DNA of 64,000 nucleotides, taken from contig NZ_CP032762.1 of the NCBI RefSeq assembly GCF_003641205.1, positions 3,596,001-3,660,000 on the forward strand, read 5' to 3'. This DNA comes from Rhodococcus sp. P1Y (GTDB lineage Bacteria; Actinomycetota; Actinomycetes; Mycobacteriales; Mycobacteriaceae). Both the position numbers and the translations under genes were made by a program. How positions within the stretch are numbered: position 1 is the stretch's first letter; the number at the start of each line of letters is the position of its first letter. Of this stretch, positions 44,929 through 64,000 are shown one piece after another. The notes beneath the pieces were generated by a model that ran no database searches, was not told where the DNA came from, and saw only the letters and a list, made by a program, of their open reading frames with translations.

Positions 44929-45017
44929 TGGTGTCCGAGGGGGGACTTGAACCCCCACGTCCGTTAATAGGACACTAGCACCTCAAGCTAGCGCGTCTGC
45001 CATTCCGCCACTCGGAC
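44929..45017 (-). tRNA. tRNA-Leu (anticodon GAG)
   Basis: The minus strand folds as a class II tRNA. Acceptor GTCCGAG pairs with CTCGGAC, then discriminator A and encoded CCA. The anticodon loop is TTGAGGT between CTAGC/GCTAG arms, giving anticodon GAG. A long variable arm (GTCC..GGAC) and a T arm with GGTTCAAGTCC are present. The body is 44932-45017, plus CCA. Confidence 0.95.
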
Positions 45018-57355: not shown

Positions 57356-58597
57356 ATGCATTCTTGGTCCGACACAGCTGTACCGTCGATCCCGGGTCAG
57401 GGCCCGCCGCTTCGGTTGTACGACACAGCGGATCGTCAGGTCAGGCCGGTCACACCTGGTACGGAAGCGAAGATGTACGTCTGCGGAATCACACCGTACG
57501 ACGCCACTCACCTCGGCCATGCTGCCACCTATCTCACGTTCGATCTGGTCAACCGCTTGTGGCGTGATGCGGGTCATTCCGTGCACTACGTGCAGAACGT
57601 CACCGACGTCGACGACCCTCTGTTCGAGCGGGCCGATCGAGACGGGGAGAACTGGGTCGATCTGGGCCAGCGTGAGATTCAGCTGTTCCGCGAAGACATG
57701 GAAGCGCTGCGGGTACTGCCGCCGCGCGACTACATCGGAGCGGTCGAGTCGATCGACGAGGTGATCCAGTTGGTCGAGAAGCTTCTCGCCTCCGGCGCCG
57801 CGTACGTCGTCGACGACGCGGAGTTCCCCGACGTCTATTTTCGCGCTGACGCCAACACCCAGTTCGGATACGAGTCCGGGTACGACCGAGCGACGATGGA
57901 CAAATTCTTCGCCGAACGTGGTGGCGATCCGGACCGAGCAGGAAAGCACAATCCGCTGGATGCACTTCTGTGGCGTGCTGCACGGCAAGGCGAGCCCTCG
58001 TGGCCGTCGCCGTTCGGACCGGGCCGGCCGGGGTGGCACATCGAATGTGCGGCGATCGCGCTGAACCGCATCGGCGCCGGATTCGACATCCAGGGCGGCG
58101 GTAGCGACCTGATCTTCCCGCATCACGAGTTCTCCGCAGCGCACGCTGAGGCTGCGACGAGCGGTGATCGATTCGCTCGTCACTACGTGCACACGGGCAT
58201 GATCGGACTCGACGGCGAGAAGATGTCGAAAAGCCGGGGCAACCTGGTGTTCGTGTCGAAACTCCGCGCCGCAGGGGTCGATCCCGCCGCGGTACGCCTC
58301 GGGCTTCTGTCGGGGCATTACCGTCAGGACCGCGCGTGGACGGACGAGGTTCTGGAACGTGCACACACCAGGCTCGCAACGTGGCGACGCGCGGCCGCAT
58401 TAGAGTCCGCAACCAGCGCCGATGATGTCATCGTCCGTGTGCGTCAGCATCTCGCGGACGACCTGGACACACCCAAGGCGCTCGACGCGCTCGACGCATG
58501 GGCGAGCTTCGCAGTCGAGCGCGGCGGGTCGGACGCATCTGCGCCCGGTGAATTCGCCGCCGCGGTGGACGCGCTACTGGGAATTCCACTGCGCTGA
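57356..58597 (+). CDS. mshC: L-cysteine:1D-myo-inosityl 2-amino-2-deoxy-alpha-D-glucopyranoside ligase
   Basis: ATP-dependent ligase of mycothiol synthesis that joins cysteine to GlcN-Ins; a paralogue of cysteinyl-tRNA synthetase. The 413 residues show the class I HIGH-type motif HLGH (52-55), zinc ligand C43, and KMSKS (289-293). It is shorter than CysS at the C-terminus (no anticodon-binding extension), as MshC is. Its stop is 32 bp from the convergent jetD stop. Confidence 0.95.
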
Positions 58598-58629: not shown

Positions 58630-59871
58630 TCAGGCCAAGTCCGCAAGTAAGTCCGGGATGAGTCGTTCTTCCATGACAGCGCGGCCGGACTCGTGCATTG
58701 CGGAGGCGAGTTCGGGGTCCCATGCGCTGGTGGCCGGAAAACCCTTGAGAGGCTCCGAGTTACGGGTATCGAGGGCACGGCGGTATGCGCCCTCGTCCAT
58801 CCGCCACGGGGTTGCTCCGTACCGGGCGACGGCGCGCGACGTCATCTGCAGCCCCGGCCAGTCGAAATCGTTCCGCCAGTGCAGGGCCGTACCAGGGCGT
58901 AGACCGCCCAGAAGTCTGTGCACGGCGGCGGACGGCTGACCGTCGGTGCATACGATGGCTGCCGAATCCTTGCCGAGTGTTCGAGCTGCGGCGGCCACCA
59001 CGGCGATGTTCTCGCACACGAACACTCGATCGGCAGTATTGGTGAGCGCGGCGCGCCCGATCATGTCGAGTGTGAGCGGAAACGGTATGCCCACATCCGC
59101 TGCCTCGTTCAACCACCGTGCGACAACGTGGTCCTCCTCGACTCGGAACCCGAGTAGAACGACCCTGCTCGACAATGCGTCGACCGAGACACCCGCTGTC
59201 TCCCACAGCAATCGAATACCGACGGGATCCACCGGCCGCGGGATACCTTCGCGAAGCGACAGTGCGTCGAGAACGAGTTTCGGTGCGCCGCCCGAGGACA
59301 GCGCCTTGGTGTCGCCGCAGGCATTTTCAGCCAGTTCGGTCAGCGACAAACCGTCGACCGGCAGCAATGAGAGCACGTGCGCTGCGGTTCTCAGCGCATC
59401 GACGGCGACTCTGCCGCCGAGAGTTCCATCCTGGTTGAGCAACGAGGAGAGCCAGTGGTCGATCCAGTCCCCGTGAACCGACGCGTTCAGCAGACTGCGC
59501 GCATCTGCGAGTGCCGTGGCTTTCATCTCGGCCTTGTCCGCAGCGAGTCGCTTCTTGTCCTGCAGGGGAGCCTGTGCGTTCAGCGTGTCGATCAAGCCGA
59601 GGCCGCCGTTGAGCGGATGTGCGAGCCACTCGTCGAGCCTCGCCAGATCGAGCCTGCTGGTCTTCGCCCTGCTGTGCAGACCTGCGTTGGATCGCGAGAT
59701 CGCACTGCACAGGCGCCACAGATCCGGCGGATCGCCGAGATGAACGGTGATGTTGCCACCGATTCTCAGCCAATTGGATTCGAGTTTCTTTCGCGCAGCG
59801 GAGAGTAGAGAGTCGAGTTCGGGTGTACCCCGCCAGCCGGAGGCTCTGTCATCGGACAAACTCGAGACCAC
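58630..59871 (-). CDS. jetD: JetD, DUF2399 TOPRIM-type nuclease of a type II Wadjet system
   Basis: A 413-residue TIGR02679-like protein. The C-terminal DUF2399 domain (about 275-413) shows FVCENIAVVAAAARTLG, a conserved Glu; CTDGQPSAAVHRLLGGL; and the DxD metal motif in HWRNDFDWPGLQ. The N-terminal part (about 1-180, DUF3323-like) is helical. In Wadjet systems JetD is the nuclease that cuts circular plasmids held by the SMC complex JetABC. The GTG at 59871 overlaps jetC by 23 bp; TTG 59859 is an alternative. It is last in the operon and convergent with mshC. Confidence 0.9.
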   Translation of the reverse strand: MVSSLSDDRASGWRGTPELDSLLSAARKKLESNWLRIGGNITVHLGDPPDLWRLCSAISRSNAGLHSRAKTSRLDLARLDEWLAHPLNGGLGLIDTLNAQAPLQDKKRLAADKAEMKATALADARSLLNASVHGDWIDHWLSSLLNQDGTLGGRVAVDALRTAAHVLSLLPVDGLSLTELAENACGDTKALSSGGAPKLVLDALSLREGIPRPVDPVGIRLLWETAGVSVDALSSRVVLLGFRVEEDHVVARWLNEAADVGIPFPLTLDMIGRAALTNTADRVFVCENIAVVAAAARTLGKDSAAIVCTDGQPSAAVHRLLGGLRPGTALHWRNDFDWPGLQMTSRAVARYGATPWRMDEGAYRRALDTRNSEPLKGFPATSAWDPELASAMHESGRAVMEERLIPDLLADLA

Positions 59872-62800
59872 CTTCGGTACGCGTCGGTACTCTCCTCGTC
59901 AACGGTGACCCCAGCGCGGCCGCCAAATCCGTCCCGTCGTGTTCGGCCAGAAGTTCCCCGTTCTCCCACACCAGCAATGCGGCGCTGACGGTGTTCTCCG
60001 CGGTCGAATGTGCGAGATCGTAGTGCGCACAGCCGGGCACATCGGAATAGGTGATCCAGAGGTCGTACCCCGTCATGAACAGATCGAGATCGAACTGCAC
60101 GCTCAACCCGAGCAATTCGCTTCTGCCGTTGTCGTCGACACCCGCGAACGCCTCGTCGAGCGCGAGCAAACGAGGGGAGTGTGGGTCGGCCGAGGACAGC
60201 ATCACGTGCGCCGCAGCGAACAATGGAAGGTGGAGTGACACCGATTGTTCGCCGCCGGACAGTGCGCTGTGCCGTGCGACGGTGAGCCGATCCTCGGTGC
60301 CGTCACCGCGAATGAGGCTGAATGCGAACACTCGCCATCGACGGTAGTCGAGAGTCGTGGCCAGGATCTCCGGGTACGAACGCTCGGGATTGGCGGCGCG
60401 TGCGATTCTGATTTCGGATGCGAAGTGCGCACGCATCTTCGCGAGATCGTCGGCGCCGAGGGCGGAGGCGTCGCGATCGAGCAGCTTGGAGATTTCGCGA
60501 GCACCGTCGTCGAGGTTGTCCGCGAGTACCCAATGCACTCCGATCGTGTTGCCCGAGGACATCTTTCGCTGCTTCATCTCCGCGGCCATCTGGGCGATGA
60601 GCTCGCGGGCGTCGACGGTTCGCTCGTGGATCTGCTGCGCGAGCCCGGTGAGCAGAGCATCCTCCAGAATGCGTCGTTCGTGTTCGGTGAGCAGTGTCTC
60701 CTGGTTGGAGCGGGCGTCACCGATGCGGTTCGCGAAGTCGCCGACCGACGAATAACCCTGTTCGTCCTGGATTCTCACCACCGTGAGTCCGTCGGGCGCG
60801 TCCCACTGCAGCCGATAGTCCTGGCCGGACGACGCCAGCTGCGAGTCGAACTCCTGGAGCGCACCGGTCAGTGCAGTGCGTGTGCTCTTGCGATAAGTGT
60901 CACTCGCCTTGACCGAGCTGGTCGCTTCGTCGAGAGCGCTGTGAAGGCCGGACACGGCGGTGGGTAGGACGGCGATCTCCTCCTCCGGTGAGCGCGCGTT
61001 CTGAATCCGATAGAGGATCTGTTCGACACTGAGCCAAGCGGATTCGCTGGAGGGCCAGGAATACACGGTCTGTACGCCAAGTATGGCGAGAAGGTCGACC
61101 CGTGCATATGGGGCCAATCTGGCGGCATCCCCCAGGGCTTCGGTCAGCGCGGCACGCAGACCCTCCTGCGCAGTGTTGCATGCGCCTTCCGCCTTACCGA
61201 TCGCTTCTCCGGCTTCCTTGTCCGACTTGCGCGCTGCGCGCTGCTCGACCTTGCATGCCTCGATCCTGTCTCGGGCCTTGTCGAGGTCTGCGGTGATCTG
61301 GTCTGCGGTCGAACCGAGCTTCTCGCTGAGTATCTCGAGACGCTGGACCTGCTGGAGGTAGTTTTCCTCGGCGATAGCCGCTTCTTCTGCCAATTCCTCG
61401 GCGAGACCGGTCGACTCCTCGAGTCGGTTCAGTGCTTCCCGTCCGCGCTCGGTTTCCCGCACGTGCTCTCCGCGCCTGCGCAGCACGAGCTCACCCTGGT
61501 TCTCGAAGTGACGGATCGATGCGGCGAGCGAGTCGATGTCCCGAGCAATGTGCGGAGTCCGGTGTGCGACTGCAGTTGTCCTTAGGTGCTTCTCCTTGGC
61601 AGACAATTCTGCGATGGCCTGATCGAGTTCGCTGTCGGCTGTTCTCGCGCCTGCCTGAGACGTACGAAGTGCACCCGCCGCCTCGGTCACTGCCTTCTGC
61701 GCCTTGATGATTCCCGACGCCTTCGGCAATCTCTTCGCAGCTGCGGCCAGACTACGAAGCAGCTCGGTCGCTGCGCGCTCCTCGTGCTGGGTGGCATCGA
61801 GGGTGCCGGACGTCGCGTCGATCGATGCGTCGAGTTCTTCGATTCGGGCGGCACGCCGTCGGGCTCGTGCGGTGGCCCCGATGTATTCGGCGTCGGGTTT
61901 GACGTGGCGGCCCTGTTGCACACCTTGGCGGAAACGACCGTCGACGCCGATGACCGTCACCCCGTGGTCGCCGTGTCCGAGCGCAATGGAGGACAGAATG
62001 TCGTGGACGACATCTTCGGCCACATCGGTCCCCGGCTCCGGGGTGAGGACATCGGCGAGTGTGCGCCCGGCGGGTCGCTCGCTCGGTGCGGCAGGCACGA
62101 GGTAGTGCTCGGACTCGATTGCCGCAGGCACGGACGTCGGCGAAATCCAGCCGTCGAGGATGTTCGCGGCGTGAAGCGCCGCTTCGACTCCGGCTGCCTC
62201 GGCAGGCTCGATTCCGTCGAGGAATCGGACCAGTTGCCACAGGGGCGCACCGGCGAGGCCGTCGCGCGACGATGTTCGCGCGGCGAACGGCGGGGGAGCG
62301 TCGTCGTGTTGAGCCTCGATCACCCTGCGTTCGGCGCGGAGCGTGGACAATTCTTCGGACAGTGCCGCTGCGCGCACCGAAGCCTGCGCCTTCTTGGCGC
62401 GGACCAACTCGAGGCCTTCCGTGGAGGCCTCGGCCAAGACCGTGTCCGAGCTGGGTGCGTCGTCCTCACCGATGTGGGGAACCGCCGCATCGAGCAGCTC
62501 GAACGCCGAGACGGAAATTCCCGCGTCCTGGTAGATCGAGGAATGCTCCGACCACCACGACCGGAGTGCGGACGAGTACTGTGCCCGTGCCAGCTCGACT
62601 GCTGCTTCGGCTTCGATGACCGAGGCTCGTGCGGCTTCGAGCAGCTCACGTGAACGTGCGGCGCTCTTGTCTGCGCGGGCTCTCTCGGTCGCCGCTTTCT
62701 CGACGGTGCCCAGTGCCTCACGAACGGCGCGCACATCGCCGTCCCGTTCCTCTGCATGACCTCGGAGAGCGGTGCTGAACTGATCGCTGCGTGAGGACGT

Positions 62801-64000
62801 CGGCATCGATGCCCAGGCGATTCCTGCGTCGTCTGCGGCGGACTGGAGATCGTCCTCGGCGCGAGCCAGCGCGCTCACCGCGTCTTTCACCGCGGCCTCG
62901 GCGCGTGCCGATTCGGTCGTACGCTGCTCGAGGTCGGACTGCGCCTTGCGTGCTCGTTCGGATTGCTGAGCCGCTGAAATCTTCAGTTTGCCTGCCGATT
63001 CGGCCAAGTCATCGAGTTGCTGTTTACCCTCGTACGCGCTCGAGCGCTGCAGGGTCTCTCGATCGGCCAGCGCCTGATCCAGAGCGCGCTCGGCATCGTC
63101 GAAGCGCTTCTCCGCTGCCAACCGCTCCTGCAGCCGACGTTCTTTCAGTGCGGCAGCGGCGAAATGGGCGGTGGTGGCGTGAGTGACTGCCTCGAGTCGA
63201 CGGGAGACCTGTTCGACGTCCGAACGCGCCTGAACTCGAAGGTACTTGGAGTAGACGCCGACGAAATTCTTGGCCGCGAGATCGGCCTGCGCGAGCCCTT
63301 CGAGCGCGCGGCCGACTTCTTCCATGTCGCTGAAGGACCGTGCGGCCTCGAGAACGAGTTGATCGTCGAGCGGACGTAGCCCGTCCGTCAGTGCCTGCGA
63401 CAGACCTTTCGGATCGAGATTCTTGGCCAGTTGTGGACGACGAAGCGTCAGGATGAGATTGATGAGCTGGTCGTATCGCTGCACGCCGAGTCCGAACATG
63501 CGGGCGTCGATCGCGGCTCGGTAGTCGACGGGGCGATCGGTCAGCGCGTCGGTCCCGAGCTGTTCGGCCAGTTGCTTCTTGGTGAGCGGGCGGTCATCGG
63601 ACCCCAGGAGCGAGAAATCGACCCCAGCACGGCCTTCGGCAACGAAGTACCAACGTGTGACCTTGTCGTTCTGGCGACTCGCGCGCATTCCGATTCCCAC
63701 GGTGACCGATTCCGGGTTCTCCCGTGTGCCACGCCCGAACTCCATCCACACGTACGAGTGAGCGCTCTCCTGCCCGCGATAGAGCAGGTTGGACTTCATC
63801 GTGCGTTCCTCGCCTGCGAACGGATTGAGGCGACGCGGTTCGATTCGGCCGTCCAACACGAACGGGAACAGCACCTCGAGCGCTTTGGTCTTGCCCGATC
63901 CATTGGGGCCGCGCAGCACCAGACGGCCGTCGGCGAACGAGAACTCTTGATCGCGGTAATCCCAGAGGTTGATGATCCCTGCTCGCGTCGGTCGGAAACG
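59849..64000 (-). CDS. jetC: JetC, SMC/MukB-like ATPase of a type II Wadjet system (5' end cut by window edge)
   Basis: At least 1,383 residues, still open at the right edge. The first visible residues are RFRPTRAGIINLWDYRDQEF, the opening of TIGR02680 proteins, so only about 10-30 residues are missing. Walker A GPNGSGKT follows within 40 residues. Long Ala/Glu/Arg-rich coiled coils fill most of the middle. Near the C-terminus lie the ABC signature LSGGEQSVSLHLPLFAAAH and Walker B RLLALDEAFAGVDD. JetC with JetA (kleisin) and JetB forms a loop-extruding condensin-like complex that recognises plasmids. jetA and jetB are expected just beyond 64000. Confidence 0.92.
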   Translation of the reverse strand, partial: RFRPTRAGIINLWDYRDQEFSFADGRLVLRGPNGSGKTKALEVLFPFVLDGRIEPRRLNPFAGEERTMKSNLLYRGQESAHSYVWMEFGRGTRENPESVTVGIGMRASRQNDKVTRWYFVAEGRAGVDFSLLGSDDRPLTKKQLAEQLGTDALTDRPVDYRAAIDARMFGLGVQRYDQLINLILTLRRPQLAKNLDPKGLSQALTDGLRPLDDQLVLEAARSFSDMEEVGRALEGLAQADLAAKNFVGVYSKYLRVQARSDVEQVSRRLEAVTHATTAHFAAAALKERRLQERLAAEKRFDDAERALDQALADRETLQRSSAYEGKQQLDDLAESAGKLKISAAQQSERARKAQSDLEQRTTESARAEAAVKDAVSALARAEDDLQSAADDAGIAWASMPTSSRSDQFSTALRGHAEERDGDVRAVREALGTVEKAATERARADKSAARSRELLEAARASVIEAEAAVELARAQYSSALRSWWSEHSSIYQDAGISVSAFELLDAAVPHIGEDDAPSSDTVLAEASTEGLELVRAKKAQASVRAAALSEELSTLRAERRVIEAQHDDAPPPFAARTSSRDGLAGAPLWQLVRFLDGIEPAEAAGVEAALHAANILDGWISPTSVPAAIESEHYLVPAAPSERPAGRTLADVLTPEPGTDVAEDVVHDILSSIALGHGDHGVTVIGVDGRFRQGVQQGRHVKPDAEYIGATARARRRAARIEELDASIDATSGTLDATQHEERAATELLRSLAAAAKRLPKASGIIKAQKAVTEAAGALRTSQAGARTADSELDQAIAELSAKEKHLRTTAVAHRTPHIARDIDSLAASIRHFENQGELVLRRRGEHVRETERGREALNRLEESTGLAEELAEEAAIAEENYLQQVQRLEILSEKLGSTADQITADLDKARDRIEACKVEQRAARKSDKEAGEAIGKAEGACNTAQEGLRAALTEALGDAARLAPYARVDLLAILGVQTVYSWPSSESAWLSVEQILYRIQNARSPEEEIAVLPTAVSGLHSALDEATSSVKASDTYRKSTRTALTGALQEFDSQLASSGQDYRLQWDAPDGLTVVRIQDEQGYSSVGDFANRIGDARSNQETLLTEHERRILEDALLTGLAQQIHERTVDARELIAQMAAEMKQRKMSSGNTIGVHWVLADNLDDGAREISKLLDRDASALGADDLAKMRAHFASEIRIARAANPERSYPEILATTLDYRRWRVFAFSLIRGDGTEDRLTVARHSALSGGEQSVSLHLPLFAAAHVMLSSADPHSPRLLALDEAFAGVDDNGRSELLGLSVQFDLDLFMTGYDLWITYSDVPGCAHYDLAHSTAENTVSAALLVWENGELLAEHDGTDLAAALGSPLTRRVPTRTEGGLEFVR

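Follow-up and report, generated by a model that had tools for sequence, protein, structure and literature searches.

An operon at the right edge of a 64,000 nt stretch of the Rhodococcus sp. P1Y genome (contig NZ_CP032762.1, positions 3,596,001 to 3,660,000 of the forward strand; the whole stretch is called the window below) is, on its gene content, a further member of the type II Wadjet anti-plasmid systems. Mycobacterium smegmatis, which belongs to the same order of bacteria as the species of the window, carries the JetABCD-homologous system EptABCD, here set beside the window's operon by description. Loss of EptABCD is reported to raise plasmid uptake and, in contrast to the relatives of the window's operon, the available portions of these papers describe no unarmed form, i.e. 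one without its nuclease (PMC10586767, PMC12287153). For Wadjet in general, the accounts available describe JetABC as a dimeric, DNA-extruding motor that activates the nuclease JetD after a full circle has been extruded, with circles larger than about 100 kb and linear DNA escaping the system (PMC10586767, PMC12647877). The type II system nvJET, from Neobacillus vireti, is described as cleaving circular DNA (PMC12647877). Like the window's operon it joins JetABC to JetD; the window's locus differs in that every sampled genome of the genus has it, JetD being present in only some of them.

MksBEF of Pseudomonas aeruginosa, which is not a type II system, is a structural maintenance of chromosomes (SMC) core without a nuclease and in this resembles jetD-less relatives of the window's operon, whereas the window's own copy has jetD. 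A review describes it as likely derived from JetABCD by loss of JetD and as contributing to chromosome organization (PMC10586767). MksBEFG of Corynebacterium glutamicum, a type I system, combines, like the window's operon, an SMC core with a TOPRIM nuclease, and no PDB entry matches the predicted JetD fold better than its MksG (8b7f); however, the nuclease in that system is given as DUF3322-DUF2220 (PMC10123090), while JetD here is DUF2399. The copy in the window, with its nuclease, is an armed Wadjet of the ordinary kind and not a nuclease-less core.

The reading favoured here, with considerable confidence, is that of a complete type II Wadjet, predicted to cut plasmids, with a JetABC motor that stays constant and a JetD that different lineages have lost or exchanged. 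What was not expected is that the nuclease varies and the motor does not: all sampled genomes of the genus share the chromosomal motor, and the nuclease is optional. All four genes lie on the minus strand. Within the window are jetD (58630–59871; 413 aa, a DUF3323-DUF2399 TOPRIM nuclease with conserved E287, D335 and D337) and most of jetC (59849–64018, of which 59849..64000 is in the window; 1389 aa, a TIGR02680 SMC-like ATPase), whose start is 18 nt beyond the window edge. The original prediction, made from the window alone, had placed jetA and jetB immediately past position 64000. When the sequence was read on in the single 5.87 Mb contig of which the window is part, both were there and complete: jetB (DUF2398, 459 aa) at window-equivalent positions 64019–65398 and jetA (DUF2397, 515 aa) at 65395–66942. 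DUF2397 and DUF2398 genes are thus not missing upstream, nor is jetC frameshifted in the contig, and all four frames are full length, on one strand, without an internal stop. The jetA and jetB genes share 4 nt, jetC directly adjoins jetB, and the overlap of jetC with jetD, noticed earlier, measures 23 nt. The mycothiol ligase gene mshC (57356–58597, plus strand; TIGR03447 735.8 bits, over cut-off) is convergent with the operon and, as had been described, adjoins it, with 32 bp between the end of mshC and the jetD stop.

JetA, JetB, JetC and JetD match PF09660, PF09661, TIGR02680 and PF09664, respectively, each over the curated cut-off, and the PADLOC models JetA2, JetB2, JetC2 and JetD2; JetA, JetB and JetC are also over the cut-offs of their own NCBIfam models. 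DUF2397, DUF2398, TIGR02680 and DUF2399 therefore stand in one operon, in the order that defines type II Wadjet, and the earlier assignment to that type is borne out for the complete gene set, as are the four family models proposed for checking it. JetC scores 748.9 bits with TIGR02680 (cut-off 462.85) and 1415 bits with PADLOC JetC2, and its ATPase motifs are intact (Walker A GPNGSGKT, signature LSGGEQ, Walker B LLALDEAF). In a sequence search of the PDB, JetC (E 4e-73) and JetA (E 4e-15) match the JetC and JetA chains of 9qe0/9qe1, which are homologous over large parts and distant in sequence. These chains are probably of the nvJET kind. JetD matches PF09664 DUF2399 at 142.4 bits (cut-off 23.4), PF11796 DUF3323 and PADLOC JetD2. 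E287, D335 and D337 are invariant among 15 JetDs aligned and are taken to be the TOPRIM metal ligands, as is established for the family. A structure model built from the 15-row alignment (mean pLDDT 88.3, pTM 0.72) has as its best PDB fold matches 8b7f (C. glutamicum MksG), 7til (P. aeruginosa JetD) and 1d3y (topoisomerase VI A). JetD thus has the TOPRIM acidic residues and, in its predicted structure, a JetD/topoisomerase VI A-like fold.

Because all the parts for it are present, the extrusion-then-cut mechanism of the studied systems has been adopted for this operon, together with their plasmid target. After loading on DNA, JetABC would use ATP-driven loop extrusion to reel in small circular plasmids, which the JetD nuclease would cut when extrusion has been completed.

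Thirty-seven genomes of the genus, the window's own included, all contain TIGR02680 and MshC, and in all 37 jetC is near mshC. DUF2399 is found in 29 and absent from 8, and the variable element at the mshC junction is the nuclease gene. In the 36 other loci the jetC stop is followed by 59–1291 bp and then by mshC on the opposite strand, and jetD fills that space in 28. No tblastn match to JetD at E 1e-3 was found in the eight jetD-less loci. Since the motor genes are present in 37/37 genomes and the cutter is missing from 8/37, the motor may serve a purpose for which the cutter is not required.

The same pattern extends to the family (Rhodococcus, Nocardia and kin), for which 251 genomes were drawn evenly from a larger group. 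JetC, counted where the match was better than 1e-60, occurs in 106 of these genomes (over the curated cut-off in 100). DUF2399, counted at 60 bits or more anywhere in the genome, is present in 28 of the 106 and missing from 78; 66 of the 106 lack both DUF2399 and DUF2220, the nuclease of the other Wadjet types. Within this sample, no genome lacking JetC has a DUF2399 gene at 60 bits or more. As a control on sensitivity, 217 genomes from across the phylum contained 15 with JetC (Rhodococcus sp. P1Y included), 14 of which have DUF2399; JetC is only partial in the exception, G454, and in two further genomes, which have no JetC, DUF2399 matches only weakly (46 and 38 bits). The difference between the family (28/106) and the rest of the phylum (13/14) gives a Fisher p of 2e-6, uncorrected for kinship. 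Because 78 of the 106 JetC genomes are without DUF2399, counting Wadjet by JetA, JetB and JetC alone would overstate plasmid defence in the family.

Individual loci were followed by a scan with the window's JetB, from which the best 80 of 211 loci were taken. An iterated JetD profile found jetD in 21 of these and none in 53; the other 6 are uninformative (contig ends or a broken jetC), leaving 74. The profile also detects the JetDs of four distant type II loci and so is not blind to divergent JetDs. On the JetC tree, 20 of the 21 jetD-bearing loci belong to the Rhodococcoides clade and the remaining one is from Antrihabitans. Among the sources of the 53 negative loci are R. erythropolis, R. 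opacus, Prescottella and Nocardia. Where mshC was found at jetD-less loci (21 loci, one of which, L053, has a broken jetC), it lies 13–122 nt past the jetC stop in 13 and 508–3379 nt past it in 8. At locus L100 (genome G007), JetC is intact to its last residues and 83 % identical to that of the window, and 58 bp then lead to mshC. This gap folds into a strong hairpin (−34.6 kcal/mol, z −5.8), which could be a bidirectional terminator shared by the convergent jetC and mshC in the absence of jetD. Likewise, Rhodococcoides kyotonense KB10 (L023) is jetD-less with 61 nt between jetC and mshC, whereas Rhodococcoides kyotonense JCM 23211 (L022), its nearest row on the JetC tree, has jetD; both are inside the jetD-bearing clade. 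At the mshC locus the same motor is thus armed in one sister strain and unarmed in the other, which makes a nuclease-free role directly testable.

Several observations weigh against the reading of a plasmid-cutting type II system. JetD reaches 186.2 bits with TIGR02679, just below the cut-off of 196; since Pfam DUF2399 and PADLOC JetD2 match strongly, the family call stands, and the shortfall would reflect one model's threshold and no defining trait. Searching the PDB by sequence alone found no chain for JetD or JetB, and the whole-chain TM-scores of the best JetD fold matches are low (0.30–0.40). Additionally, the plasmid replicase PF03090 occurs in 3 of the 28 JetC genomes with DUF2399 and in 14 of the 78 without (p 0.55), with no plasmid effect visible in these counts across the 106 genomes.

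The jetD-less motors are well kept. SMC, kleisin and KITE genes persist without the nuclease in 8 of the 37 genus genomes and in 53 of the 74 informative loci, and these JetABC sets are full length. Among 133 full-length JetCs surveyed with simple patterns (75 without and 58 with jetD, some genomes being counted twice), all three ATPase motifs were found in all but 4 of the 75 and 2 of the 58; the six that miss a motif are distant JetCs, none of the mshC type. Pairwise Nei-Gojobori dN/dS over hand-chosen pairs, some sharing a member, has medians of 0.052 (jetA), 0.084 (jetB), 0.059 (jetC) and 0.096 (jetD) in 8 jetD-bearing pairs, and of 0.063, 0.112 and 0.084 for jetA, jetB and jetC in 13 of 14 jetD-less pairs, one having been dropped for too few changes. 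The medians for mshC are 0.047 (the 8 jetD-bearing pairs) and 0.044 (7 jetD-less pairs). These values indicate that jetABC without jetD is under purifying selection nearly as strong as with it. One jetA pair, L065/L066, has a dN/dS of 0.239, perhaps from a wrong start. Columns invariant in 17 jetD-bearing rows fall below 50 % in 62–63 jetD-less rows at only 0 of 243 positions in JetA, 2 of 189 in JetB and 4 of 588 in JetC, the long-branched jetD-less rows L135, L141 and L149 and short rows having been excluded beforehand. No loss of a JetD docking surface in the jetD-less cores was seen in this column comparison.

A 103-row JetC tree shows six or more changes of the jetD state. It was built with FastTree and has flagged long branches, and in one of the rows scored as jetD-less, L070, the sequence behind jetC is only 443 bp long. 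Four lineages of the mshC-type clade have jetD, in every case immediately behind jetC, and their JetDs group together to the exclusion of other type II JetDs (100/99). A single clade fits common descent with repeated loss. However, JetC suggests that Rhodococcoides groups with Antrihabitans, and the JetD data reject this (p-AU 0.005), so that at least one exchange, or a long-branch error, is likely. The history favoured here would be one of common descent, probably repeated loss, and at least one exchange.

The retention of the motor raises a further possibility, which would add to the Wadjet reading and which we consider somewhat short of an even prospect: that JetABC is primarily a chromosomal or otherwise nuclease-independent SMC motor and JetD an add-on effector that was kept here. 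It is consistent with JetC being universal in the genus sample where DUF2399 is in 29/37, with DUF2399 in 28/106 and neither nuclease in 66/106 family genomes against 14/15 in the phylum control, and with the low dN/dS, intact ATPase motifs in mshC-type cores and near-unchanged invariant columns of JetABC without jetD. The MksBEF precedent, a chromosome-acting core that probably goes back to a system that lost JetD, points the same way (PMC10586767, portion available). On the other side, a canonical SMC is present in 37/37 genus genomes, so there is no SMC vacancy for JetABC to fill; the conservation of the surface might reflect a partner that still binds; jetD-less loci have a slightly higher dN/dS than jetD-bearing ones; and the accessible text on C. 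glutamicum reports that mksB deletion has no chromosomal phenotype and that MksBEFG does not act on the chromosome (PMC7083940). The unarmed cores may possibly have a nuclease-independent role, as a type II counterpart of MksBEF, and for these relatives such a role is the preferred reading. A bolder version, to which we would give a chance approaching even, is that JetABC may be a core chromosomal SMC complex of the family with a job of its own and JetD a detachable warhead, lost or swapped, which would make this a second, independent route from plasmid cutter to chromosome organizer, visible while still under way between armed and unarmed sister species.

It is rather unlikely, though worth weighing, that in the jetD-less relatives an unrecognised nuclease encoded elsewhere docks on JetABC and plasmids are still cut. 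The retention by JetA, JetB and JetC of nearly all columns invariant in jetD-bearing rows would suit such a partner. So would a 510-codon stop-to-stop frame in G163 (L134:3685-5214, minus strand), which starts 4 nt past a distant JetC copy, has no Pfam or PADLOC match and is a possible candidate effector; at the equivalent second copy in G101 (L132), this place is taken by a convergent thiolase. However, jetC has no co-directional downstream neighbour that recurs across the loci listed. A Pfam scan of 28 ORFs neighbouring jetC (20 co-directional and 8 convergent, from 18 of the 53 informative jetD-less loci and 10 other family loci), 10 of them rescanned with PADLOC and a looser Pfam threshold, found no nuclease, the Pfam matches being to unrelated families. 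A type I or III nuclease acting in trans was also considered and rejected, DUF2220 being present in 12 of the 78 JetC genomes without DUF2399.

That the jetD-less loci are decaying remnants or annotation misses is very improbable. A median dN/dS for jetD that is the highest of the four jet genes might hint at decay, as might two draft assemblies in which error or real breakage has affected jetA: in Rhodococcus sp. AW25M09 it lies in two frames (L035:7897-10001), and in G011 (L104) the best jetA match ends early. Against this, a profile able to find distant JetDs finds none in 53 of the 74 informative loci, the intact jetC of L100 ends only 58 bp from mshC, and selection on JetABC appears strong.

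The idea that an accessory defence island was recently inserted at the mshC junction, an insertion point suggested by the original prediction, can be dismissed almost entirely: rare defence systems are described as often patchy in these genera (PMC10482375, as far as its available text goes) and the jetD state changes repeatedly on the JetC tree, but position and presence are constant in 37/37 genomes, divergence tracks that of MshC and the neighbours are housekeeping genes. Pairwise divergence correlates with that of MshC at r 0.940 (JetA), 0.948 (JetB), 0.963 (JetC) and 0.951 (JetD), and neither a patchy jetC nor an empty junction was seen among the 37 genomes. Synteny and co-divergence thus point to a vertically inherited chromosomal locus and to no recent island.

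The neighbours were taken as 28 ORFs picked by length, 21 from 29.5–57.3 kb of the window and 7 beyond it. Among them PADLOC gave, as other defence genes, only matches to the AAA ATPase models IetA and TRIP13, one member each; these are probably an AAA-domain false positive from the proteasome ATPase ORF at window-equivalent 82318–84231 (L003:6318-8231). NCBIfam families among the 25 of 41 matches listed include methylmalonyl-CoA mutase, PyrD, UppP, the proteasome and pupylation. Beyond jetA, a nirB-like gene is on the minus strand at window-equivalent 67263–69740.

That Wadjet is common in Rhodococcus is already published: 73 % of 97 genomes were reported to have Wadjet, restriction-modification and either Eleos or PD-T4-3, in a survey whose available text does not use the word JetD (PMC10482375). 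A literature search, with subscription papers outside its scope, found among the matches listed no report of jetD-less type II systems in the Rhodococcus/Nocardia family.

A distant second JetABC set is present in G035 (L129:2726-8942), a genome without DUF2399; its best pieces are 28 % (JetA) and 30 % (JetC) identical. The set adjoins a probable DUF2079 membrane protein and a gene that, by its sequence, looks like a RelA/SpoT-type (p)ppGpp synthetase. Within the window, the sole Rfam match at gathering thresholds is a tRNA gene at 44932–45017 on the minus strand.

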